DNA from: Bifidobacterium eulemuris
GTDB lineage: Bacteria; Actinomycetota; Actinomycetes; Actinomycetales; Bifidobacteriaceae
Direction of reading: 5' to 3'
NCBI RefSeq assembly: GCF_014898155.1
Contig: NZ_CP062938.1
Location: forward strand, 806,001 to 870,000
DNA length: 64,000 bases
Below the pieces are notes generated by a model, which saw nothing but the letters and a program-made list of their open reading frames with translations, made no database searches and was not told the DNA's origin. How positions within the stretch are numbered: position 1 is the first letter of the stretch; the number at the start of each line of letters is the position of its first letter. The translations under genes and the position numbers were made by a program. Shown one piece after another: positions 29,348-60,456 of the stretch.

Positions 29348-29539
29348 AACTGCGTTAGTGGTAGTGTCTGAAGAGGTTTGCGGAGGTCGATCTGCGTTAG
29401 CGGTAGTGCCTTTTCGAACCAGCGGCGTGTATAAACCGCAGAATACCGGGCTTGCTAGATGAGGCAGGAACGATAAGGCACTACCGCTAACGCAGATCGA
29501 CCTCCGCAACCCCACAAATCCACTACCGGTAACGCAGAT
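29348..29539. repeat. 65-bp inverted repeat pair beside the prophage (in the 29199-29929 gap)
   Basis: Arms at 29348-29412 and 29475-29539. The inner 35 bp (29378-29412 and 29475-29509) are perfectly complementary and the outer parts are similar. Each arm holds two copies of a core near CTGCGTTAGCGGTAGTG, so the core appears four times. A 62-base centre has no open frame. It could be a miniature element or a large RNA hairpin. Confidence 0.85.
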
Positions 29540-29672: not shown

Positions 29673-29700
29673 CCCCTCTTGGAATATCGTCCAAGAGGGG
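29673..29700 (-). terminator. Terminator of the original tRNA-His gene
   Basis: A perfect 10-bp stem (CCCCTCTTGG with its complement) is followed on the minus strand by five T residues. It lies 31 bases beyond the CCA end of the tRNA-His fragment, as expected for the pre-integration tRNA gene. Confidence 0.8.
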
Positions 29701-29730
29701 CTTAATCGTTGGAAACACTGGGTTTCCTAG

Positions 29731-29775
29731 TGGGGTGGATAACGCGGCTCGAACGCGCGACCTTCTGAACCACAA
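29731..29775 (-). other. attL: 3' half of tRNA-His(GTG)
   Basis: Read on minus, it holds a TTGTGGT anticodon loop (GTG at 29773-29771), the AGGTC variable loop, a GCGCG/CGCGT T-stem around TTCGAGC, an acceptor strand TATCCAC, discriminator C (typical of tRNA-His) and CCA. Upstream of the loop the sequence no longer fits a tRNA, so only the 3' half is here. This is the usual footprint of a tyrosine integrase using a tRNA 3' end. The reconstituted tRNA should lie at the other prophage end. Confidence 0.85.
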
Positions 29776-29867
29776 TTATCTGCTACACTGTTTTTCACAC
29801 TTCGAAAACTCAGCATTTAAGCGAAAGAAACGTTGAAATTCCAACGCTTTTCCTATACTTGGAAAGT

Positions 29868-29929: not shown

Positions 29930-31354
29930 ATGTCGAAGAGAAGCGTCAACGGCGCATACAAACCCTTCAAGACGGAAAGCGGCGTCTGGCTAGGGGCCGT
30001 CGAGAACGGAAGATACCCGAACGGGCGCAAACGCTACAAGTACGCGCGCGGCAACAGCAAACAGGAATGCCGCACGAACATGGTCGCACTCAGGGAATCC
30101 CTCAAGAAGGGACTGCCCGTCAACAGTTCAGACACACCAAGGTTCGGCGAATACGCCGACCGATGGCTGGAACACAAGTTCAACGAGGTGCGACGCAAGA
30201 CCTACGAAAGCTACATGACGGTGAACGCACGCCACCTCACGCCCCTGCGCCCGTACCCGCTGAACGAAATCACGCCCGGCATGGTGCAGAGCCTCATCGA
30301 CAACGCGAAGTCGTACACGCAACGCGGAACGGAGAACGGTCCTGCGGGCGTATCGCTGAAGGAGAAGATTCTTACCGTCGTGAAACAGGTCTACGAAATG
30401 GCCGTAAGGGACGGTCTCGTGAACCATTCGCCGGTCGTGGCGATCACGATAGGCAAGACGAAAGACATGCAGTACGAACTCGAACGACAAGCCGAAGCCC
30501 AGTCGTTCAGCGCGGCCGAACTGATGATGATGCTCCAAATCGCCGACAGGATGCCGGTGGAACAAGGGGCGATATGGTGGTGGCGTCTGCTCACAGGCAT
30601 GAGGCAGATGGAGATACTGGGAGCGCAATGGTCGCACCTGCGCACCTACACCGACACGATGGACGTTCTCGAACAGCACGAGGTCGAAAAGACCGTCGAT
30701 TTCACCGACGAAAACGGCATCGTCAGACAGGGTACCATCACGACGACGGAGACCATACCGGTGAAGCGAAAGATGACGGTCGGTGAATACACGGTCGAAT
30801 GGCAGCTCAACGAGGCGGCGAGAGTTCACGGCTGCGGTGAGCCGGACGTGGACGGCGTATATCCATGCGGATACAAGAAGGCCGCGTTCTGCGACTTGAA
30901 GCAATGGAGGCTGCCGGACAACTATTCCTTCGTTGAATTGCAGGGGCGGTGGATCCTCGCGCGACCGAAGTCGAAGACCGGCAAGAAGGTGCCGATCATC
31001 CCCATGCTCGCGGCGAAGATGCGACAGTACGAGAAAGCGACCCGTGATTGGCCCAATCCTCACGGGCTGATATTTAGACGGCCGGATGGAACGCCTCTCG
31101 GCCCGAAAGAGGACAGCGCAGGCTTCGACAGGCTGATGGAGATGAGCGGAATCGACCCCGAGCTCCACAGAGGGCACGGCACACGTCATGCGATGGTGAC
31201 GCTGCTCGCCCAATGCGGCGTCGATTTCCAGCTCATCAAGGAAATCGTCGGCCATTCGTCAGACGCGATGGTCGCCCACTACCGTCATGCGGGATCGGGC
31301 GAACGACTCCGTGCGATGGAGCGAGTCGGAGAACGGTTGAATCTTACCTCCTAG
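29930..31354 (+). CDS. int: Phage integrase, tyrosine recombinase family
   Basis: A 474-residue enzyme that integrates and excises the prophage at tRNA-His. It has an N-terminal AP2-like arm-binding segment (about residues 10-55), a SAM-like core-binding domain (about 70-170) and a catalytic domain. Catalytic residues: Arg in TGMRQMEIL, Lys in KSKTGKKVPI, His-x-x-Arg in HGTRHAM, His in GHSSDAM and the nucleophile Tyr in AHYRHAG. An insertion between the first Arg and the Lys carries three Cys (CGEPDV, PCGYKK, FCDLK). It faces into the prophage next to attL. I found no excisionase beside it. Confidence 0.95.
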   Translation: MSKRSVNGAYKPFKTESGVWLGAVENGRYPNGRKRYKYARGNSKQECRTNMVALRESLKKGLPVNSSDTPRFGEYADRWLEHKFNEVRRKTYESYMTVNARHLTPLRPYPLNEITPGMVQSLIDNAKSYTQRGTENGPAGVSLKEKILTVVKQVYEMAVRDGLVNHSPVVAITIGKTKDMQYELERQAEAQSFSAAELMMMLQIADRMPVEQGAIWWWRLLTGMRQMEILGAQWSHLRTYTDTMDVLEQHEVEKTVDFTDENGIVRQGTITTTETIPVKRKMTVGEYTVEWQLNEAARVHGCGEPDVDGVYPCGYKKAAFCDLKQWRLPDNYSFVELQGRWILARPKSKTGKKVPIIPMLAAKMRQYEKATRDWPNPHGLIFRRPDGTPLGPKEDSAGFDRLMEMSGIDPELHRGHGTRHAMVTLLAQCGVDFQLIKEIVGHSSDAMVAHYRHAGSGERLRAMERVGERLNLTS

Positions 31355-34010: not shown

Positions 34011-35670
34011 CCCCCCCCCCCGCGACGACCTCGCCCGGCTCCCACGTCGTTACCACTGTGCCAATCTCAAGCTGTGGATGGAGAACCACATCGACACTTG
34101 CTGGAGCGCTGCCGCTGCGAATCCGAAACTCAATGGACGAGAAGTCATCCGGCATCGTGAATCGCGTCGATCTGCTCTCGTATGAGAAACTCGTATCCAC
34201 AGCGGCTGCGCCGCTTGTGGTCTTCACGACGATGCTGCCCAGCAATGCGCCTGCCGGAGCGTCATAGACTCCACCGGAGAGCGTATAGGTCGCGCCCGGT
34301 TGAAAGAGAGCGTTGTCAAGGAACCATCTCACACCGCCCCACGAACCGACAGCGGTTCCCGTGATATGGACCCCGCCATCGTCCAACACCGTGCATGTCA
34401 GACCGTTTTCCGTGGCGTCTCCGTATCGGAGGAGGTTTGTGCGTAAATCAATAGCCCCCCCCCCGTTCGTTTCCGAAATCGGGCGGATGTATTCCGCGGG
34501 CGCGGTGTCGCCGGACACGAGATACGGCTTCACCGGCTGGCCGAAATTCCAGAACTGCACCTCGGCCGTGGCGTCGGCGACATCCTCGGCGATGGTGATG
34601 GTGCGGCTCGCGCCGCCGTTGACTATCTCCGTGCCCATGCCCGTGCCGGACAATACCACCGTGCCGCTCGGGGCGAGATTGCCCATCGTGTACGTGCCGG
34701 CCGGCAGGCTCACCTGATTCGACCATACGGCCTTGTCGCCCGCAGCCAATCCGGTGGCGGTCAGACCGTCAGCCGCCACGGCCACGCTCTTATCACCGTC
34801 AGCGACAGGGCCGACGCTCAGGAGATTGACCGCAGCGATGACTCCTTGGTCCAAATCCGTCACGTCCGGACGCTGCCAAGCGGTCGCAACGTCCCCGGCT
34901 TCGAGCTGGAGCTTGTAGGCCACTCCACCTTGGTCCGTATTGTTGTTAATCATTCGCAGATTCAGCGAAATGGTTCCGATCACGTCGGGCAAGGTGAAAG
35001 TGTCGCGTTCCTTAGCCTCCTCGCCGGAAAGCAAGTCCGTCCGGCCGACAGTAACCCCGTCCACATAAATCCACGTCTGAATATTCCTATACCCGTCAAC
35101 CTTCGGATTCTGAGAAAGCGTATACGTTCCTCCGGGAACGAACTTGCTTTTATCGAGATCCCATTTGACGGTCTGCCATGTCTTGGTGGTGGTGCCGGTC
35201 AGCGTGACCGCGCCCTCACCGTCCACGCCGACCGTCACACCATCGGTCTCGGCGACAGGACCGTACTGCAGCAGGTTGCGGGACAGGGGTTTCGGCAGGA
35301 CGGCGGTACCGTAGGCTCGCGCCTTCGCGCCCGCCGTGGTGCAATCCACCACCGACACAATCTGACCCTCAGCGCCGCTGACCTCACCGCTCTCGGGCCA
35401 GTCGGTCCAACCGTCCGCTTTACGGCACACCGTGTCATACTCCACGATCGGTTCGGAACCGGCGTCGGTGATGAGATAGCGGCGATGGCATTTCGCCATG
35501 ACCGACTGTTCGACCATCAACGATTGACCGTCCACGCGGGCCATGACCCGTATGAACAAGGCGGGGAAACGGTACGGCCACACCATCAGCCCGTTGTACA
35601 AAGCGTTGACCTGCACGCCGTTCATCAGGGGCGGCGATTCGATCAGCTTGCCATTGAGATACGCGGGCAT
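34000..35670 (-). CDS. Tail fibre / host-recognition protein, proximal part (ends at the G11 tract)
   Basis: 556 residues in the present frame. It starts with about 130 residues likely to attach to the tail. Repeating modules follow, each opening NLL and carrying a pattern like GTYTLS ... QLE-G ... T-W; these look like carbohydrate-binding jelly rolls. ATG 35670 overlaps the upstream stop (TGATG) and has AGGAGG. A G10 tract (34455-34464) encodes Gly-Gly-Gly between modules near residue 403. The chain ends GEVVAGGGAGG-stop where the G11 tract (34011-34021) shifts the frame. Related module sequence resumes after the tract. Receptor binding is inferred from position and architecture. Confidence 0.85.
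   Translation of the reverse strand: MPAYLNGKLIESPPLMNGVQVNALYNGLMVWPYRFPALFIRVMARVDGQSLMVEQSVMAKCHRRYLITDAGSEPIVEYDTVCRKADGWTDWPESGEVSGAEGQIVSVVDCTTAGAKARAYGTAVLPKPLSRNLLQYGPVAETDGVTVGVDGEGAVTLTGTTTKTWQTVKWDLDKSKFVPGGTYTLSQNPKVDGYRNIQTWIYVDGVTVGRTDLLSGEEAKERDTFTLPDVIGTISLNLRMINNNTDQGGVAYKLQLEAGDVATAWQRPDVTDLDQGVIAAVNLLSVGPVADGDKSVAVAADGLTATGLAAGDKAVWSNQVSLPAGTYTMGNLAPSGTVVLSGTGMGTEIVNGGASRTITIAEDVADATAEVQFWNFGQPVKPYLVSGDTAPAEYIRPISETNGGGAIDLRTNLLRYGDATENGLTCTVLDDGGVHITGTAVGSWGGVRWFLDNALFQPGATYTLSGGVYDAPAGALLGSIVVKTTSGAAAVDTSFSYESRSTRFTMPDDFSSIEFRIRSGSAPASVDVVLHPQLEIGTVVTTWEPGEVVAGGGAGG
34011..34021 (-). repeat. G11 tract 2: the current frame break in the fibre gene
   Basis: Eleven C on plus. 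With G11 the frame reads GCA-GGC-GGT-TAG and stops. With G10 (or G13) it reads CAG-GCG-GTT-AGC and continues into the next module. With G9 or G12 it stops about 19 codons later. Confidence 0.9.
34455..34464 (-). repeat. G10 tract 1 in the fibre gene
   Basis: Ten C on plus, in frame as Asn-Gly-Gly-Gly-Ala. One extra G gives TAT-TGA, a stop two codons later; one fewer gives TGA about 19 codons on. Confidence 0.9.
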
Positions 35671-36923
35671 CACGCCTCCTTCGCATCGGTTCCGTCAGCC
35701 TCGTCGGCCGGGGTAGTGTCCTTCGTTTCGGTTTCGGCGGGTTCGGCGGCGGTCGCGTCGGAGTCCGGGTTCACGTCGGCATCGGCGTTCATGTCGGTGG
35801 TTTCCTCACTGTCCGTGCCGGTGGTCTTATCGGCCTCCGTGTCCGGTGCCACGCTGGTATCCGTGTCGGCGTTCGCGTCGCCATCCGCGTCGCCTTCCGT
35901 TTCGGTGCCTGTTTCGGTGTTCGTTTCGGTATCCACGCCGGTGTCCGTTCCGGTATTCGAGCCGGTTTCCGTTTCGGGCTGGGATTCGCCATCGTCAGGC
36001 ACCGTCACATCCCCGGCGTCACCCGTCTCACCGGTCTCACCGGCGTCTCCGGTCTCGCCACCGTCCCCGGTCTCACCGGTCTCGGGAAGCACCGTCGGCA
36101 CACTCGCCGCCGCCGCGTCAATCGCAGCAGCCGCGGTCGAAGCCTTCGACTCCACATCCGAAACGGACTCACTGATACGATTCGCCGCCTCAGTGGCCGC
36201 GGTCTCCACCGAAGCCGCCTGCGTGCCCATCCCATCAACCAACTCGTCGGCACGCTTCGTAGCGGTCTGCGCATACGACACCGCCGCCGCGCTCAAACGC
36301 CCGACCTCATCGGTCTTCGCCGCGACCGCCGCAGCATCCTGCGTCGTCTTCTGAACGATGCTCGCGGACTGATTCGCGACAGTCTGCGACTCATTCGCGG
36401 CCGACTTCGCCGCCACGGCAGCATCCTCAGCCTCACTCCGAGCACGCAAAGCGAACGCCACCGTCTCGTTCAACATGGTCGCCGTGCCATCCTCACCGAA
36501 GAACACCAACACGTTCGGAAACTGCGCGCTCAACGCCGCCGCCTCCACCGAATCCGCCGCATACCGCACCTTCAGAATGTCGGAATTATCCACCAACGCG
36601 GACGGAACAAGAGTCTTCGGATCCACATCCACGAGATCCACATACTCCAACAGCGCCTCCGACTCCGGCACCTCCACATACCGGTCGTAAGCCTGCGGCG
36701 TGTCCGCCAACTCCGTCACACGCCACACGAACCCATTGTTCGACGTGGGCAGCAAATCCACCGTCGCCTGACCATCCGCCAACGCGATGTCGAAACCCTG
36801 GGCGACGACCACGTTCTTCGCCGCGTCGTAATGGCGACGCACCGGCGAGAAACGCAGCCTACCCACCGCCGCCTCCGTACCGCCATCAACAGGCACGCGG
36901 ATGCTGACATGAATGTTCGTCAT
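35670..36923 (-). CDS. Tail/baseplate protein with coiled-coil and acidic low-complexity tail
   Basis: A 417-residue protein. Residues 1-150 form a folded domain (TNIHVSIRVPVDGG ... GEDGTATMLNETVAFALRAR) resembling upper-baseplate fibre N-termini. Residues about 155-270 are Ala/Glu/Gln-rich and likely coiled coil. A short collagen-like run of Gly-Glu-Thr-Gly-Asp triplets follows (about 280-302), and the last 110 residues are almost only Asp, Glu, Thr, Ala, Gly and Ser. The start has AAGGAGG; its stop overlaps the next start (TGATG), so it is translated together with the variable fibre and may be its shaft or adaptor. Confidence 0.75.
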   Translation of the reverse strand: MTNIHVSIRVPVDGGTEAAVGRLRFSPVRRHYDAAKNVVVAQGFDIALADGQATVDLLPTSNNGFVWRVTELADTPQAYDRYVEVPESEALLEYVDLVDVDPKTLVPSALVDNSDILKVRYAADSVEAAALSAQFPNVLVFFGEDGTATMLNETVAFALRARSEAEDAAVAAKSAANESQTVANQSASIVQKTTQDAAAVAAKTDEVGRLSAAAVSYAQTATKRADELVDGMGTQAASVETAATEAANRISESVSDVESKASTAAAAIDAAAASVPTVLPETGETGDGGETGDAGETGETGDAGDVTVPDDGESQPETETGSNTGTDTGVDTETNTETGTETEGDADGDANADTDTSVAPDTEADKTTGTDSEETTDMNADADVNPDSDATAAEPAETETKDTTPADEADGTDAKEA

Positions 36924-37403: not shown

Positions 37404-37419
37404 CCCGCCTATTGGCGGG
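37404..37419 (-). terminator. Terminator just outside the invertible segment
   Basis: Stem CCCGCC/GGCGGG with a four-base loop, followed on minus by TTTTT. It lies five bases beyond the left inversion site, so it can end transcripts from either orientation of the switch. Confidence 0.8.
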
Positions 37420-37423
37420 AACA

Positions 37424-37439
37424 TAACGGGCGTTATCGG
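37424..37439 (+). repeat. Left inversion site
   Basis: TAACGGGCGTTATCGG, containing near-symmetric arms TAACG and CGTTA around GG. Exact inverse of 38050-38065. Confidence 0.85.
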
Positions 37440-37440
37440 T

Positions 37441-37788
37441 AGTGACTGGACGATGCCGCGGCAGACCACACTCACCGGCTATCCAACCTCCGGAGGGTTC
37501 GCCCGGTTCGACCTCCGACGCATGGGCGACCTCGTATGCTGCTACTCCACGATGAACAACATCACCGGCGACGGATTCAATTCCTTGAACCTGACCGTTC
37601 CCGTTGGATGGAGGCCCCCGCACGGCGAATTGCCGCCTGTTCTGATGCGCACCGACAGAACGGCGAACGAGGTCGTACTGAACGTGGACACCAACAACGG
37701 CTACAAAATCACCTACTACAGCGGCATATCCACCGTGAACACCTACCACACGGGCTTCGGCCTATGGAAGACGCACGACTACCTGTGA
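37441..37788 (+). CDS. Silent alternative C-terminal cassette B of the receptor-binding protein
   Basis: 115 codons open from the left inversion site to the stop at 37786-37788, on the opposite strand to every neighbouring tail gene. The first ATG (37453) has no convincing ribosome site, and the frame runs open through the site upstream, so this is not an ordinary gene. The sequence (RRMGDLVCCYSTM ... LTVPVGWRPP ... VVLNVDTNNGYKITYYSG) follows the pattern of phage fibre-tip beta domains: a strand, a GWRP turn, then V-N-D/N-G-Y-K-I. After inversion it would replace cassette A and give a 199-residue protein. Confidence 0.8.
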   Translation, partial: SDWTMPRQTTLTGYPTSGGFARFDLRRMGDLVCCYSTMNNITGDGFNSLNLTVPVGWRPPHGELPPVLMRTDRTANEVVLNVDTNNGYKITYYSGISTVNTYHTGFGLWKTHDYL

Positions 37789-37790
37789 TT

Positions 37791-38300
37791 TCACGCGGTG
37801 CGTATCCATGCGTGGTACGTGTGGTCGCCGACCCTGAGACACCATTGCTGCGCGGCGGTGTTGTTGAACTCGTACAACTGTATGTTCTGCCCGCTTGATA
37901 ACACAGCGCTTTCGATGTCGATCGCATAGCCGGGGTCGTACGCGCTCACGATGTTGACGTACGCTATGGCCCACGTGCCGTGATAGCCGACGGATTCCGG
38001 CGTGACGCCATCCTGGAGCCATATCAGTTGCCCTATGTTCGCGAGTGAGCCGATAACGCCCGTTACGACGGAGATACGCCGGCTCGTCTCGACCACCACA
38101 CGCGACCCCACACGCACACCCAAACACGCGGTCGTCATCGGAATATCCTCCAACGAACCACCCTGCACGCTCACCGTGCAACGCGCGTTCGACACGGCCG
38201 TGACCGTGCCCAACGACACGACCGGCACCTCCACGTTCTCATCGTCCAATTCCTCCGCCAGCAACCGGCCAGCACGGGCGACATCCATATCCGAAACCAT
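37791..38300 (-). CDS. Receptor-binding-type tail protein with exchangeable C-terminus (cassette A in place)
   Basis: 169 residues. Residues 1-84 form a constant part (VPVVSLGTVTAVSNARCTV ... GVRVGSRVVVE), a small beta barrel like OB-fold baseplate proteins. Residues 80-84 (TGVIG) are encoded by the inversion site. The rest is cassette A. Its YAIDIESAVLSSGQNIQLYEFN and QQWCLR match a ricin-B-type lectin repeat with its Q-x-W end. The start at 38300 follows GGGAGG. It lies after the baseplate-type gene and before a terminator. A carbohydrate-binding role is inferred. Confidence 0.82.
   Translation of the reverse strand: MVSDMDVARAGRLLAEELDDENVEVPVVSLGTVTAVSNARCTVSVQGGSLEDIPMTTACLGVRVGSRVVVETSRRISVVTGVIGSLANIGQLIWLQDGVTPESVGYHGTWAIAYVNIVSAYDPGYAIDIESAVLSSGQNIQLYEFNNTAAQQWCLRVGDHTYHAWIRTA
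38050..38065 (-). repeat. Right inversion site
   Basis: On minus TAACGGGCGTTATCGG, identical to the plus-strand site at 37424-37439. It lies within codons 79-84 of the receptor-binding gene. Confidence 0.85.
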
Positions 38301-38326: not shown

Positions 38327-39433
38327 CTATGAGGGACGCTGATACATACGCGCCTCGGTCTGCGTGGGAATGCCCGCATCCAATTCGATATGCTGCGAAC
38401 GAACCGCATACTTGCCCGACACGCCACCCGTGGGATACTCGACCTCCACCGCGTCGCTGATCGTGCAAGGCGCGTAAGCGTGCGTGAACGTCACACGATG
38501 GATGACCGACTGGCTCGTGCGCAACAACTCACGCGCCTTCGACTCCGCCAACGCCTTCCCCTGCGCGTCCGTCTTGACCGACTCCGGAATGCTCGAATAC
38601 TCGACCGTCGTGCCCTTCCTACGACCCAACGACACCGTGCTCCACCGGCTCTTCGGATCGGAATCCACGACGATGCCCACATACTCACGGTCCGTGTCGT
38701 AATAGATGACCTTCACGACGTTCTTCACACCGGAAGTGTCCAACTCGTCGGTCATCTCCGCCAGAAACGTCGCGTTCTCACCCTCCACGAAACTCCACGC
38801 GGGCTGACGGTCCGAAGGCTCCGCATACGGGGCGAACACGACCTGCCCATACGGATTCGTGCGAGCGTTCCAAAACCCCGCCAAATCCAACAAATCGTTC
38901 ACCGCGTCCAACTTGCTCGACCCCCGGCCGGGATCCTTGTCCGACCGCAAACCGAACGTCCAATTCTCCTTCAACACATACGAGCCGGGATCATAGGCGG
39001 CGACCTGCAAACCAGCCTCACGGCATATGCGGGCCGCGCAGTCCACCGCCTTCAACCCCTTGCCCATCGTGATGGGATTCTCGAACATGTCATCCGCGAG
39101 ATCCTGCAACAGCCCGGACAGTTCGATCTGCGACTGGCTCTCCGAACCGTTCACCGCACGCGACGGAATCGACGGCTCGAACGTGCCCAACGGCACCGAC
39201 TCGACACTGCCGTCATGCCATTCGCAGTCGGCCCACACGCGCAGCCAATCCGTACCCAAATCCAACGAACCCTCGTACACGATCGACCCGGACTCCGTGA
39301 CGCTCGTGTCCTGATTGCGTTCGATGCTGCCGCCCGTGAGCACACGGTCCAACACGGCAGTCTCTTCATACGAGCCACGCTTCACGCGCATCACCCGATA
39401 CGCCACCTCATACGGTTTCGACCAATCAGCCAT
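38327..39433 (-). CDS. Minor tail / baseplate-type protein
   Basis: A 368-residue protein resembling the distal hub or upper-baseplate proteins of actinobacterial siphophages (DUF5047-like N-terminus YEVAYRVMRVKRG...). Segments such as GSIVYEGSLDLG and PLGTFEPSIPSRAVNGSESQ fit tail-hub beta domains. Its ATG overlaps the upstream stop (TAATG). Placement after the FN3 protein and before the receptor-binding gene supports a role at the tail tip. Confidence 0.75.
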   Translation of the reverse strand: MADWSKPYEVAYRVMRVKRGSYEETAVLDRVLTGGSIERNQDTSVTESGSIVYEGSLDLGTDWLRVWADCEWHDGSVESVPLGTFEPSIPSRAVNGSESQSQIELSGLLQDLADDMFENPITMGKGLKAVDCAARICREAGLQVAAYDPGSYVLKENWTFGLRSDKDPGRGSSKLDAVNDLLDLAGFWNARTNPYGQVVFAPYAEPSDRQPAWSFVEGENATFLAEMTDELDTSGVKNVVKVIYYDTDREYVGIVVDSDPKSRWSTVSLGRRKGTTVEYSSIPESVKTDAQGKALAESKARELLRTSQSVIHRVTFTHAYAPCTISDAVEVEYPTGGVSGKYAVRSQHIELDAGIPTQTEARMYQRPS

Positions 39434-42264
39434 TACCTCACCGGTTCCTCCCATGCGAGCTGCGTCAAATCGACCGCATACTCGATATCCTTATATTCCG
39501 TGGTGTCCACGGCCCATTCCTGATCGACCTTCGCATACCAGCGCAACCCGCTCGGCTCCCGATACCATGCGTACGTGTAGGCGTCCGCCGTCGCCACAAG
39601 CCGCGAATACAACGCCGAATCCCATTCGAACAATCCGCGCACCGTCGCCGTCGATTGCAGTTGGCGCATCGAATAGCTGACCGGCAGCGTGTTGTCGCCG
39701 CGCGCGAAATGCATCTCGCTGGACGCATGCACGCGATTGTGACGCGCGCTCATATTGAATCCGAGCGTCACGGCCACGCTCGCGTCACGGCCGAAGTTCA
39801 AAATCCCGTAATGGGCTTCGACACGCGCCTCTTGCGTGATGTCGCTCACCGCTCCCGACTCCGCCTGGGCGACGATGCGATACGAATAGTCCGTGTTCAA
39901 CGGCGGCAGACGGTCGATCGTCGATTGTCCGTCAGACAGGTTCCCGTCGAGCAGCAGTTCGGAAGCGTCCGGCATGACCCGATACACGAGGATGCGCCGC
40001 GTCGGCGGCACGTCCGCGCCGGAACCGAACAGGACCGTCAGATGCGCCGCGTAAGCGTCGTCATACGTGACCGACACGCGCGGTTCGGGCGGAGCCACGA
40101 ACAGTACGGGCGCGTCGGAACTCACCGTGCTCGACAGCGTGCTGCCGCCACGCACCGTCAGTCTGAACGTCAGCAGGTCCCCATCCAACGGAAGGAACAT
40201 GCCCGACGTGACCGTGAGGCTCCGCGCCCCGGCGTCCACGCGCGTGGAGAACACCACATTGCCGGAACGCACGATCTCCAACGACTGTTCCGAAACGCCC
40301 GTATCGTCGAGCACGCTCCACGCGACCGTGAACGGACTCTCCTGTATCTCCGTCAACGGGCCGGTGATGACCACGTTCGGAGGGTCGGCGACCGTGACCG
40401 TGGTCAGCGTGGACCATTCGCCCCAGTCGGCGTGCACGCCCTTCGTGCGGACACGGAACGAATACTTGCCTATCACCGAGGCCGTGACCGTCGTGGACGT
40501 GGCCGTGCCGTTGAGGTCGATGGTCGTGGTCGTGCCGTCCGGATTCGTCAGCTCGCCCTGCGCGGCCGACTGGCCCGACCCGTCGGGATGGTTCGGCGTC
40601 CACGCGACGCGCACGGTCGAACCCGTCGGCCATGCGCTGCCGTTGGCCGGCGCGGTGATGGTCGGCGCGAGCGGAGGCGTCGCCGTCATCACCTGATTCG
40701 ACGTGGTGTACGCCGAATAGAGGACGCCCTTAGACGAGTCGTCGCCGTAGATGGGGCGTGTGGCGCGGGCGCGGTACGTGACCTGACCGGCCGGAGCGTT
40801 CGTGTCGGTCCAATGCACGGTGCCCGAAGACCACGAGCCGGTATGCACGAGCGTCCACGAGCCGCCCGCCGCGAGGCGTTCGATCTGGAAGCCGTTCGCG
40901 TAGCTGCCGGAACAGTTCACGCCGACCTGCACGCTCGTGTTCGACGCCTTCACCGCCGTGACCGTCGGAGCCTTCGGCGTGGTGTAGATGACATCATGGC
41001 CGACGTGCGTGCTGTCGCCGGCCGCGTTACGCGCGTAGACCGCGCACTGCCAGCGCGTGTTCGCCTGCAGATTCGTGAACCGGTAGTTGATGGTCGTACC
41101 GGACAGGTAGACGGGCGTGCCGCCCTGATCGGCCCACTGGCCCCAGTCCGCACCGCCCGACGAACGCCGCTCCGCGAGGATGATCTGACTCCACGGCTTC
41201 GACGCGCCCGCGTTCGCCGCACTCTGCCACGACACGCTGATCGCGCTGTCCGACTCGCGCGTGAACGTCACGTTCTTCGGCGGGTCCGGCGTAAGCGTCG
41301 TCGTGATGCTGCCCGTCGCCGCGTCCGAGGAATGGACGCTGCCGCCCGACCAGCCTATCCACGTGTACTTGATGGCATACTGGCGGGCCATGTACCGCAC
41401 CGTGCCGCCTGGAGCCGAATTGTCGGTCCATTCCACGTCGGGCGCGGACAATCCTCCGGCGACGAGCGTCCAGCCGCCGCCGTTCGCGCTGCGGTAGATG
41501 TCGGTCGTGTTCGTCCACCGTGTGGTGCCCTTCACGCTGACCTTCACGCTCGTGTCGCCGGTCTTCGTCGCGCTGATCGTGGGCGCGGCGGGCGTCATCT
41601 GCACCCAGCCGAGATTCACATGATCCGACTCGCCCGCCCTGTTTTTGGAGTACACGGCCAGATAGTAGCGGTGGTTCGCGGAGAGTCCCGTGAAGCTATG
41701 GCTCGTCGCGGACCCCGACAACGTGGTCAGATGACCCCAACCGTTCTGGCTGCCGGCCCCGTCGCACGTCTGGATATCGACCATGACGTTCGCCCACGGT
41801 TTGAACGCGCCCGCGTTAGCCGCCGACTGCCACGACATGTTGATCTGCGTGTCGCCCGAAGTCGCCACCGACACGTTCTTCGGCGCGTCGGGCTTGCGGC
41901 AGGTCTTCGCGCCGGTGAACACCTGACAGCTCGCCGAGCTCGTACCGGCCTGATAGCCGGTCGTGGTCATCGACGCGCTCACCGAAACATTCCTGTCCGT
42001 ATCGGCCTTCGCGACCACGAAATCATAACGGCGGATAGTGGCCTCGCCGTTCGTGCTCGTCGAAGCGGTGCCGCTCCACGAATCCTTCTGCCCGTTGCAG
42101 TTCAGACTCACCGAACAGTTCATGCCGGAGTGGTACCAGTTATTCACCGACTGGAAGCGCGTCTCGACTCGAATCGTATCCGTCGTGTCCGTATACGCGA
42201 TGACCCACGCCGCCAAATGCAAACGCCACGCACCATATTGAATCGCACCATAACCGTCGGCCAT
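39433..42264 (-). CDS. Large minor tail protein with fibronectin type III repeats
   Basis: A 943-residue structural protein. An N-terminal domain of about 120 residues is followed by about five FN3-like repeats starting near residues 126 (DAPKNVSV), 230 (AAPTISATK), 328 (DPPKNVTFT), 430 (KAPTVTAVK) and 535 (LAPTITAPA). Several repeats share SWQSAANAGA-KPW. A C-terminal tail-tip domain ends WEEPVR. ATG 42264 follows GGAGG. Such proteins decorate siphovirus tail tips and can bind cell-surface glycans weakly. Confidence 0.85.
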   Translation of the reverse strand: MADGYGAIQYGAWRLHLAAWVIAYTDTTDTIRVETRFQSVNNWYHSGMNCSVSLNCNGQKDSWSGTASTSTNGEATIRRYDFVVAKADTDRNVSVSASMTTTGYQAGTSSASCQVFTGAKTCRKPDAPKNVSVATSGDTQINMSWQSAANAGAFKPWANVMVDIQTCDGAGSQNGWGHLTTLSGSATSHSFTGLSANHRYYLAVYSKNRAGESDHVNLGWVQMTPAAPTISATKTGDTSVKVSVKGTTRWTNTTDIYRSANGGGWTLVAGGLSAPDVEWTDNSAPGGTVRYMARQYAIKYTWIGWSGGSVHSSDAATGSITTTLTPDPPKNVTFTRESDSAISVSWQSAANAGASKPWSQIILAERRSSGGADWGQWADQGGTPVYLSGTTINYRFTNLQANTRWQCAVYARNAAGDSTHVGHDVIYTTPKAPTVTAVKASNTSVQVGVNCSGSYANGFQIERLAAGGSWTLVHTGSWSSGTVHWTDTNAPAGQVTYRARATRPIYGDDSSKGVLYSAYTTSNQVMTATPPLAPTITAPANGSAWPTGSTVRVAWTPNHPDGSGQSAAQGELTNPDGTTTTIDLNGTATSTTVTASVIGKYSFRVRTKGVHADWGEWSTLTTVTVADPPNVVITGPLTEIQESPFTVAWSVLDDTGVSEQSLEIVRSGNVVFSTRVDAGARSLTVTSGMFLPLDGDLLTFRLTVRGGSTLSSTVSSDAPVLFVAPPEPRVSVTYDDAYAAHLTVLFGSGADVPPTRRILVYRVMPDASELLLDGNLSDGQSTIDRLPPLNTDYSYRIVAQAESGAVSDITQEARVEAHYGILNFGRDASVAVTLGFNMSARHNRVHASSEMHFARGDNTLPVSYSMRQLQSTATVRGLFEWDSALYSRLVATADAYTYAWYREPSGLRWYAKVDQEWAVDTTEYKDIEYAVDLTQLAWEEPVR

Positions 42265-59703: not shown

Positions 59704-59865
59704 AACCACCCCTTTAAGAACATGCGCGCCCGGCTCCACCGTCAACAGAAATGGAACAATGGGATATCGAGAGACATGGGCACAAGGGCGCGCACATAAA
59801 CAGGACCGGCCGGCCGCTGACGAACCACACGTTATTCCGTTGTTGATTCACCGGCCAATCCCAAG

Positions 59866-59950
59866 CGGACGGTGCGAGATTTGAACTCGCGGACACCGAA
59901 GCGTCAGCACCTTAGCAAGATGCCGCATTAAACCACTCTGCCAACCATCC
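59866..59950 (-). tRNA. tRNA-Ser(GCT), phage-encoded
   Basis: Acceptor GGATGGT pairs with ACCGTCC, the anticodon loop is TTGCTAA on a GCATC/GGTGC stem, there is a long variable arm, and the T-loop TTCAAAT is present. CCA is not encoded. It reads AGC/AGT codons. Confidence 0.85.
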
Positions 59951-59955
59951 AAGAG

Positions 59956-60026
59956 CACACCGAGAGAGAATCGAACTCCCGCTTGCGGTTTTGGAGACCG
60001 CCATCCTACCACTGGACCACCGGCAT
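59956..60026 (-). tRNA. tRNA-Trp(CCA), phage-encoded
   Basis: Anticodon stem GCGGT/ACCGC with loop CTCCAAA, T-stem GGGAG/CTCTC with loop TTCGATT, acceptor ATGCCGG/TCGGTGT with several G-T pairs. CCA is not encoded. Confidence 0.8.
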
Positions 60027-60144
60027 ACAGGCACCGCCCAAAAGACGATGCCAGAGACTCCCTCCACAACCCGTGGATGAGCTAATGCAAGGATCGCCGC
60101 GGCGACCCAGGAGACCCAGTTCTGCAACTAGGCAGACGGGCAGA

Positions 60145-60215
60145 GCACCGAGCGGGAATCGAACCCGCACCATCAGCTTGGAAGGCTGAGACGCTACCAT
60201 TACGCCACCAGTGCA
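60145..60215 (-). tRNA. tRNA-Gly(TCC), phage-encoded
   Basis: Acceptor GCACTGG/TCGGTGC, anticodon loop CTTCCAA on TCAGC/GCTGA, T-loop TTCGATT on GCGGG/CCCGC. No encoded CCA. I see no further tRNA in 60027-60144. Confidence 0.85.
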
Positions 60216-60382
60216 TTCCGGCCCACTTATTGTGTCGCGCCGACCGGAAGGCCCGCCCCGTATTACGCGCCAGTTGCACCAAGGCTGTCAACTTTAGGAA
60301 ACCCACGCCCCTTCGACAGGGCAAGGCCGGCACTCGACGCGTCCGCCCGCCGTTCCCGCGACGAGCAGATACACGCCTATCG

Positions 60383-60456
60383 AGGCAAGGGCGGGACTCG
60401 AACCCGCGACACAACCCTTACGAGGGGAATGCTCTAGCCATCTGAGCTACCAAGCC
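60383..60456 (-). tRNA. tRNA-Thr(CGT)-like, degenerate
   Basis: D-arm (GCTC/GAGC), T-arm (GCGGG TTCGAGT CCCGC) and loop CTCGTAA (anticodon CGT) are clear. But the acceptor (GGCTTGG/CCTTGCC) and the anticodon stem (TTCCC/GGGTT) each have two T-T oppositions. It may be a damaged or unusual tRNA. Confidence 0.6.

Follow-up and report, generated by a model that had tools for sequence, protein, structure and literature searches.

Inversion of receptor-binding protein (RBP) genes in bifidophages has already been published (PMC6109161). In the relevant passages of that article, the Rin shufflon of prophages Bb423phi1, Bl157phi1 and Bl30698phi1 is described with its own adjacent tyrosine recombinase, several cassettes and 11-bp rix sites, TTCCCTAACCC. 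A second locus, in Bb423phi2 and 689b-1, covers about 500 bp; a small gene is inverted there between the two prophages together with the 3′ end of the adjacent gene, no recombinase flanks the segment, and an enzyme acting in trans is proposed, with none named in these passages (PMC6109161). Here, a comparable locus is described in Bifidobacterium eulemuris, within a stretch of 64,000 nucleotides (the window; positions 806001-870000 of the single contig, NZ_CP062938.1, of a 2.92-Mb genome). The element that hosts it is a prophage of about 60 kb at tRNA-His. Judging by its sequence, the locus is very probably an invertible RBP switch, and the chances are about three in four that it is a two-state switch flipped in trans by the XerC/XerD recombinases of the host.

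Like Rin, as far as it is described, the locus comprises a bifidophage RBP gene beside tail genes, in which the N-terminus is constant and the C-termini, carried on inverted cassettes, can be exchanged. Unlike Rin, it has two cassettes, no adjacent recombinase and dif-like sites; the rix sequence is not matched by the site found here, CCGATAACGCCCGTTA. The layout and the lack of a flanking recombinase are shared with the Bb423phi2/689b-1 locus in its published outline, but the 8-bp crossover of the latter, CAGGGTTA, compared on its eight published letters, contains no dif-like motif. In Gin, Cin and Min (Mu, P1 and p15B), inversion likewise exchanges the C-termini of tail proteins; these systems are reported to use a serine-family invertase (PMC6109161, in part), whereas no serine recombinase match was found in this prophage. 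CTXphi, VGJphi and the gonococcal genetic island exploit host XerC/XerD at dif-like sites, but in the sections of the source devoted to them they use Xer for integration at dif and not for the inversion of a gene segment (PMC5357621). Among the papers listed in searches of the open-licence PubMed Central (PMC) literature, none was found to describe XerC/XerD as the driver of an inversion, be it in Bifidobacterium or at a phage tail gene. Within that scope, the Xer/dif assignment of a bifidophage RBP switch is the new part.

Anatomy of the Locus

An exact 16-bp repeat is present in opposite orientations at 37424-37439 and 38050-38065, with an inter-arm distance of 610 bp, and has no further copy in the genome. 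The right copy lies within codons 79-84 of a minus-strand open reading frame (37791-38300) for an RBP-type protein of 169 aa. The left copy opens a plus-strand frame, T-G-V-I-G-S-D-W..., that ends at the TGA at 37786-37788, and both copies encode T-G-V-I-G in frame. The RBP-type gene is composed of a constant N-terminal part (codons 1-84; 38049-38300, minus strand), which has homologs in the N-terminal domains of proteins encoded at the corresponding position in related phages, and of cassette A (37791-38048, minus strand), the 85-aa C-terminus read in the present orientation. Cassette B (37426-37788, plus strand) encodes the alternative C-terminus, silent in the present orientation, and shares its reading frame with the left crossover site. 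The two cassettes are convergent, with stop codons 2 bases apart. The following elements had been noted in the initial annotation and were borne out: the coordinates and opposite orientations of the repeat, the right copy inside codons 79-84 (by translation), the left copy starting a plus frame with the same residues, and the tail-to-tail cassettes.

The plus-strand frame of cassette B runs for 116 codons without a stop, with a GC content at third codon positions of 0.82 and the top codon score among the six frames. Its first internal ATG (37453) has no upstream ribosome site, in agreement with the initial annotation; the RBP start is preceded by AGGGAGG. In 60 first-order Markov resamples of the window, 16-mer inverted pairs spaced 50-1000 bp occurred at a mean of 0.05 (maximum 2), and the window contains a second, unrelated pair of this kind, belonging to a 35-bp inverted repeat that starts at 29378, outside the prophage. 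The repeat is thus only moderately improbable by itself. These counts are what favours a chance repeat next to a spurious plus-strand frame; the in-frame placement at both ends, the codon score, the PHROG match of cassette B and the match of both copies to the dif core, described below, make this explanation extremely improbable. The in-frame placement together with the dif-core match makes the case far stronger than the repeat alone. The 35-bp repeat is itself exact and occupies 29378-29509, with arms about 62 bp apart, just beyond the left end of the prophage.

Just outside the left site there is a terminator-like hairpin followed by a T run (37404-37419, minus strand). It could terminate the RBP transcript in both orientations; one such site was present in the 1.5 kb scanned, against 1.1 expected in shuffles. 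The prophage tail genes lie on the minus strand, and a tail protein gene (PHROG 1887; 38327-39454, minus strand) is located directly upstream of the RBP gene. Another tail gene (35670-36923) contains arrays of 12-bp and 9-bp repeats at 35680-36088, with a weak collagen-repeat match under the cut-off.

Domains of the RBP-Type Protein

The N-terminal 84 residues have homologs in related tail loci of other prophages and viral contigs. Seven homologous stretches, two of them identical, were translated; at the crossover position the motif is TG[VI]LA in five of them and IIGILA in the other two. The two IIGILA proteins terminate right at the motif, and the remaining homologs run on into differing C-termini. 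The crossover coincides with a protein domain boundary, at the end of the conserved N-terminal domain. In the present protein the motif reads V-V-T-G-V-I-G and uses the valine codons GTA and GTT, which account for 2.2% and 9.0% of the 555 valine codons in 15 prophage genes; the TAA and TTA in the DNA site come from these rare codons.

Cassette B resembles the C-terminal part of PHROG 3971 (E 5e-5), and cassette A shows ricin-type lectin similarity (E 0.0045) under the curated cut-off. A search of the genus genomes with the RBP gave weak matches in 12 other genomes: the N-terminal part matched weakly in two (G058 and G067), and the lectin-like part of cassette A gave 11 weak matches in 10 genomes (E 4e-5 to 5.5e-4), inside frames of 857-1917 aa. 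When viral contigs were scanned at the level of whole proteins, the RBP and cassette B each retrieved only the record of this strain, and the protein database yielded the query's own cluster alone for both, within the word and length limits of the tool. A receptor-binding role is suggested by the position of the gene, by the weak lectin similarity of cassette A, by the weak matches in the genus and by analogy with known switches.

The Repeat as a dif-like Site

Read in the opposite direction, each repeat copy corresponds to CCGATAA-CGCCCG-TTAYG. The left crossover site is CCGATAA-CGCCCG-TTATG (37422-37439, minus-strand reading) and the right one is CCGATAA-CGCCCG-TTACG (38050-38067, plus strand). 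The actinobacterial dif suggested in the pertinent part of PMC3025954 is CACGCCGATAATGCACATTATGTCAAGT. The inner half-site pattern is matched in both phage copies and the 6-bp spacer CGCCCG is identical in the two, which by sequence makes each copy a dif-like Xer site. At a full length of 28 bp, the left site would cover 37416-37443 and the right one 38046-38073. The XerC-type arm would face cassette B in the left site and cassette A in the right one; the XerD-type arm would face the terminator-like hairpin on the left and fall within the constant part on the right. A conserved XerC arm combined with a divergent XerD arm has a precedent in the gonococcal genetic island, as described in part of PMC5357621. 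The dif-like nature of the repeat and the recombinase candidate discussed below are additions to the initial annotation.

The pattern CCGATAA-N6-TTAYG occurs at five places in the genome, and its reversed control at none. One place, at 421557, has the spacer TGTACG and is the probable dif; two are the phage copies with CGCCCG; the remaining two form an inverted pair, 17.3 kb apart, with the spacer CGGCCG. The prophage part of the window contains no further dif-like place under the filters used. Across the genus, the pattern was matched in 108 of 112 Bifidobacterium genomes, and the exact spacer TGTACG was present in 70 of the 86 genomes G000-G085 of this set. These 86 include 18 genomes that consist of a single contig, and 16 of the 18 have their probable dif (spacer TGTACG, or the same with one base changed) at a relative position of about 0.45-0.57, the exceptions being G000 and G041; the relative positions are measured from the contig ends as deposited, some sizes being rounded. 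Near the probable dif of the present genome, the skew changes sign only weakly. Since CGCCCG is common to both phage copies and differs from TGTACG, the pair should recombine mutually and not with dif.

Sister Sites in the Genus

When the spacer was restricted to G and C, a choice made after viewing the first site list, 31 sites were found in 14 of the 112 genomes, versus one control match. The same spacer as at another site of its own genome is carried by 28 of the 31 sites, in 11 genomes; three genomes have a single site. Nine genomes contain two such sites on one contig, each with at least one neighbouring pair in opposite orientation (two in the present genome). Genome G021 additionally has two same-orientation copies 31 kb apart, and in G009 and G027 the sites are on separate contigs. 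The TTACG half-site of the right phage copy is also present in the pairs of G040 and G060.

Glycosyltransferase or polysaccharide families were found among the tested genes beside the sites in G000, G021, G031, G040, G053 and G070. The tested gene in G054 and G072 has DUF1972, with glycosyltransferase matches under the cut-off, and the G053 segment itself contains two ATPase-type genes. G040 and G060 have collinear loci: the right flanks align at 94% over 2314 bp, while the stretch enclosed by the sites aligns in inverted orientation (89% over 265 bp). In G021 and G031 a 244-bp segment has the opposite orientation relative to its flank, and in both pairs of species the breakpoints are at the sites. 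Both comparisons are between species, so that inversion has happened at these sister sites, at a rate that such comparisons do not give.

Divergent operons at L066/L067 and L073/L074 are separated by short segments that have glycosyltransferase genes beside them and are inverted between related species at dif-like sites; from their layout these segments are likely to be invertible promoters. By its description, the eps2A/eps2B promoter inversion of B. breve UCC2003 is similar to these host loci, with inverted repeats between divergent polysaccharide operons; the invertase is described as not yet identified in the corresponding part of a 2014 review (PMC4155821). In the present genome, the inverted CGGCCG pair, whose spacer is palindromic, encloses a 17.3-kb polysaccharide gene cluster at 2314547-2331863 (L032, 1547-18863). 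Seven genes of this cluster were tested: five match Pfam families for making or exporting polysaccharide (glycosyltransferases, flippase, capsule synthesis, chain length), whereas the other two match none. The cluster is a candidate for a large Xer-driven host inversion. The dif-like sites of G027 (L082, 5502-5519, and L083, 5858-5875) have the spacer CGCCGC, and one of them adjoins a gene similar to that of a type I restriction enzyme R subunit; this set is possibly a switch outside polysaccharide loci.

Candidate Recombinases

Five tyrosine recombinase matches were found in the genome, along with a single serine recombinase match, the only hit of PF00239, at 83496, outside the prophage. No invertase was found in the prophage beside the locus; the nearest tyrosine recombinase match is the integrase (29930-31354, plus strand), about 6 kb off, which is the sole tyrosine or serine recombinase match in the prophage. 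The prophage is bounded by a 96-bp direct repeat with the left copy at 29681-29776 (plus strand) and the right copy outside the window, at 89686-89781 on its scale, overlapping the tRNA-His gene. Four tRNA genes (Ser, Trp, Gly and Thr) are located within the prophage at 59865-60456.

As the prophage's only recombinase match, the integrase might itself invert the segment, and the attachment (att) repeat has the 8-mer GATAACGC in common with the site. This 8-mer, however, falls in the tRNA-His part of the att repeat, and the same site class is found at polysaccharide loci, including that of G031, where the tyrosine recombinase matches are the Xer pair only. Inversion by the prophage's own integrase is accordingly judged very unlikely. 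As a candidate invertase the integrase was rejected: its 96-bp att repeat lacks the CCGATAA-N6-TTAYG pattern.

In genome G031, a draft estimated to be 99% complete in which a missed gene is possible, the search for tyrosine recombinases gave two matches and that for serine recombinases none. One of the two is XerD (359.8 bits against a cut-off of 329.6) and the other a XerC-like protein; they are 74% and 60% identical to those of the present host, where XerD also scores over the curated cut-off. XerC/XerD is the economical choice of enzyme because G031 holds only the Xer pair and the site resembles dif. Serine recombinases were searched for in G021, G031, G040 and G060 among the other site-bearing genomes; G060 and G021 each have five tyrosine matches and no serine match, and G040 has nine tyrosine and two serine matches, one of the latter under the cut-off. 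The other seven of the 11 genomes searched for tyrosine recombinases have 5 to 14 such matches.

Another host or mobile recombinase could also act in trans, as has been proposed for invertases of the second bifidophage locus in part of PMC6109161. A 287-aa Xer-like recombinase is present in this genome (1667868-1668728) and could be such an enzyme. It is identical to a protein of G041 (C1, 1390715-1391575) and, being shared by two species, is probably on a mobile element. As the invertase it was rejected: G009, G031, G040 and G060 have sites and give two weak matches each to this protein. G009, G040 and G060 hold other tyrosine recombinases (5, 9 and 5 matches) and so exclude the 287-aa protein without excluding every alternative. 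In G031 the tyrosine recombinase matches are the Xer pair alone, with no serine recombinase match. Inversion by a further trans-acting enzyme is considered very unlikely.

Orientation Records and Related Loci

The initial annotation had proposed an invertible two-cassette switch. This proposal is the best reading of the anatomy; the flipped arrangement was found neither in the genome nor in the single IMG/VR record, which comes from the same or a nearly identical strain and has the same orientation. The IMG/VR prophage copy matches the window through the switch and loses register from about 33615, which suggests an insertion or deletion between the two assemblies. The single orientation in both records, together with the lack of other members of either cassette in the protein searches within the limits of the tool, would suit a frozen relic: a locus that inverted in the past, or that arrived as a duplicated half-gene, and flips no more. 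Both frames are nevertheless open with phage-like codon use, and the two sites, identical across 16 bp, have kept their match to the dif core, so we regard a relic as unlikely.

Tail-protein alignment retrieved 15 viral loci, the record of this prophage included. At the same position in the tail locus of a related phage (L183, 9094-11384), with a tail protein about 53% identical, there are inverted TTCCCGTAACCC repeats and an adjacent phage-integrase-family gene, an arrangement predicted to be a Rin-like shufflon. The exact 16-mer was found in six stretches of viral contigs, and among these the TTAYG pattern was present only in this strain's own record. Two of the other five stretches (L095 and L096) also have an inverted partial match, 9 or 11 bp long, at distances of about 0.5 and 1.9 kb. 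The 14-base dif-like pattern occurred in at least 120 stretches of viral contigs; none of the 120 examined had an inverted pair with the same spacer.

Several observations weigh against a switch driven by XerC/XerD. To the single orientation on record is added that no dif-like pair was found in four related prophage tail loci or in 14 other viral tail loci, some of them near copies of each other, within the stretches fetched. Of 12 positions in the dif arm, the XerD-type arms of the phage sites match only 7 and 6, compared with 11 and 9 for the host's own polysaccharide sites. The locus lies about 420 kb from the probable dif, so that XerCD would presumably act without the usual activation by FtsK. 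The host XerC-like protein has XerC as its best match, with 309 bits, below the curated XerC cut-off of 335. Ten of the 11 searched site-bearing genomes have 5 to 14 tyrosine recombinase matches; with further tyrosine recombinases in most of them, G031 is the one genome that isolates the Xer pair. Structure predictions of both proteins were unusable (predicted local distance difference test, pLDDT, 31-32), which leaves position and weak domain matches to argue for the receptor-binding role.

Proposed Mechanism and Significance

Recombination between the two inverted dif-like sites would flip the segment of about 610 bp and put cassette B in the place of cassette A after the constant N-terminal domain, a change that may alter receptor binding. 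Host XerC/XerD would bind the CCGATAA and TTAYG half-sites, and strand exchange would occur across the 6-bp spacer CGCCCG. The host appears to employ the same class of sites, with other G/C-only spacers, at its polysaccharide loci. We lean towards the broader view that bifidobacteria run widespread XerC/XerD phase variation in which spacers different from that of dif confine each set of sites to itself, polysaccharide loci and this RBP being among the targets. The spacer rule that it contains (the same within a set, unlike dif) is simple and directly testable.

If the proposed switch is real, the phage outsources RBP switching to the host enzymes of chromosome dimer resolution. The same enzymes would be a candidate for the missing invertase of the bifidobacterial polysaccharide switches, as these are presented in part of the 2014 review (PMC4155821), and would suggest a type of explanation for the second inversion locus of bifidophages, which has no recombinase in its published description (PMC6109161, in part). 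One host enzyme pair would then flip both the coat of the bacterium and the phage tip that may recognise this coat.
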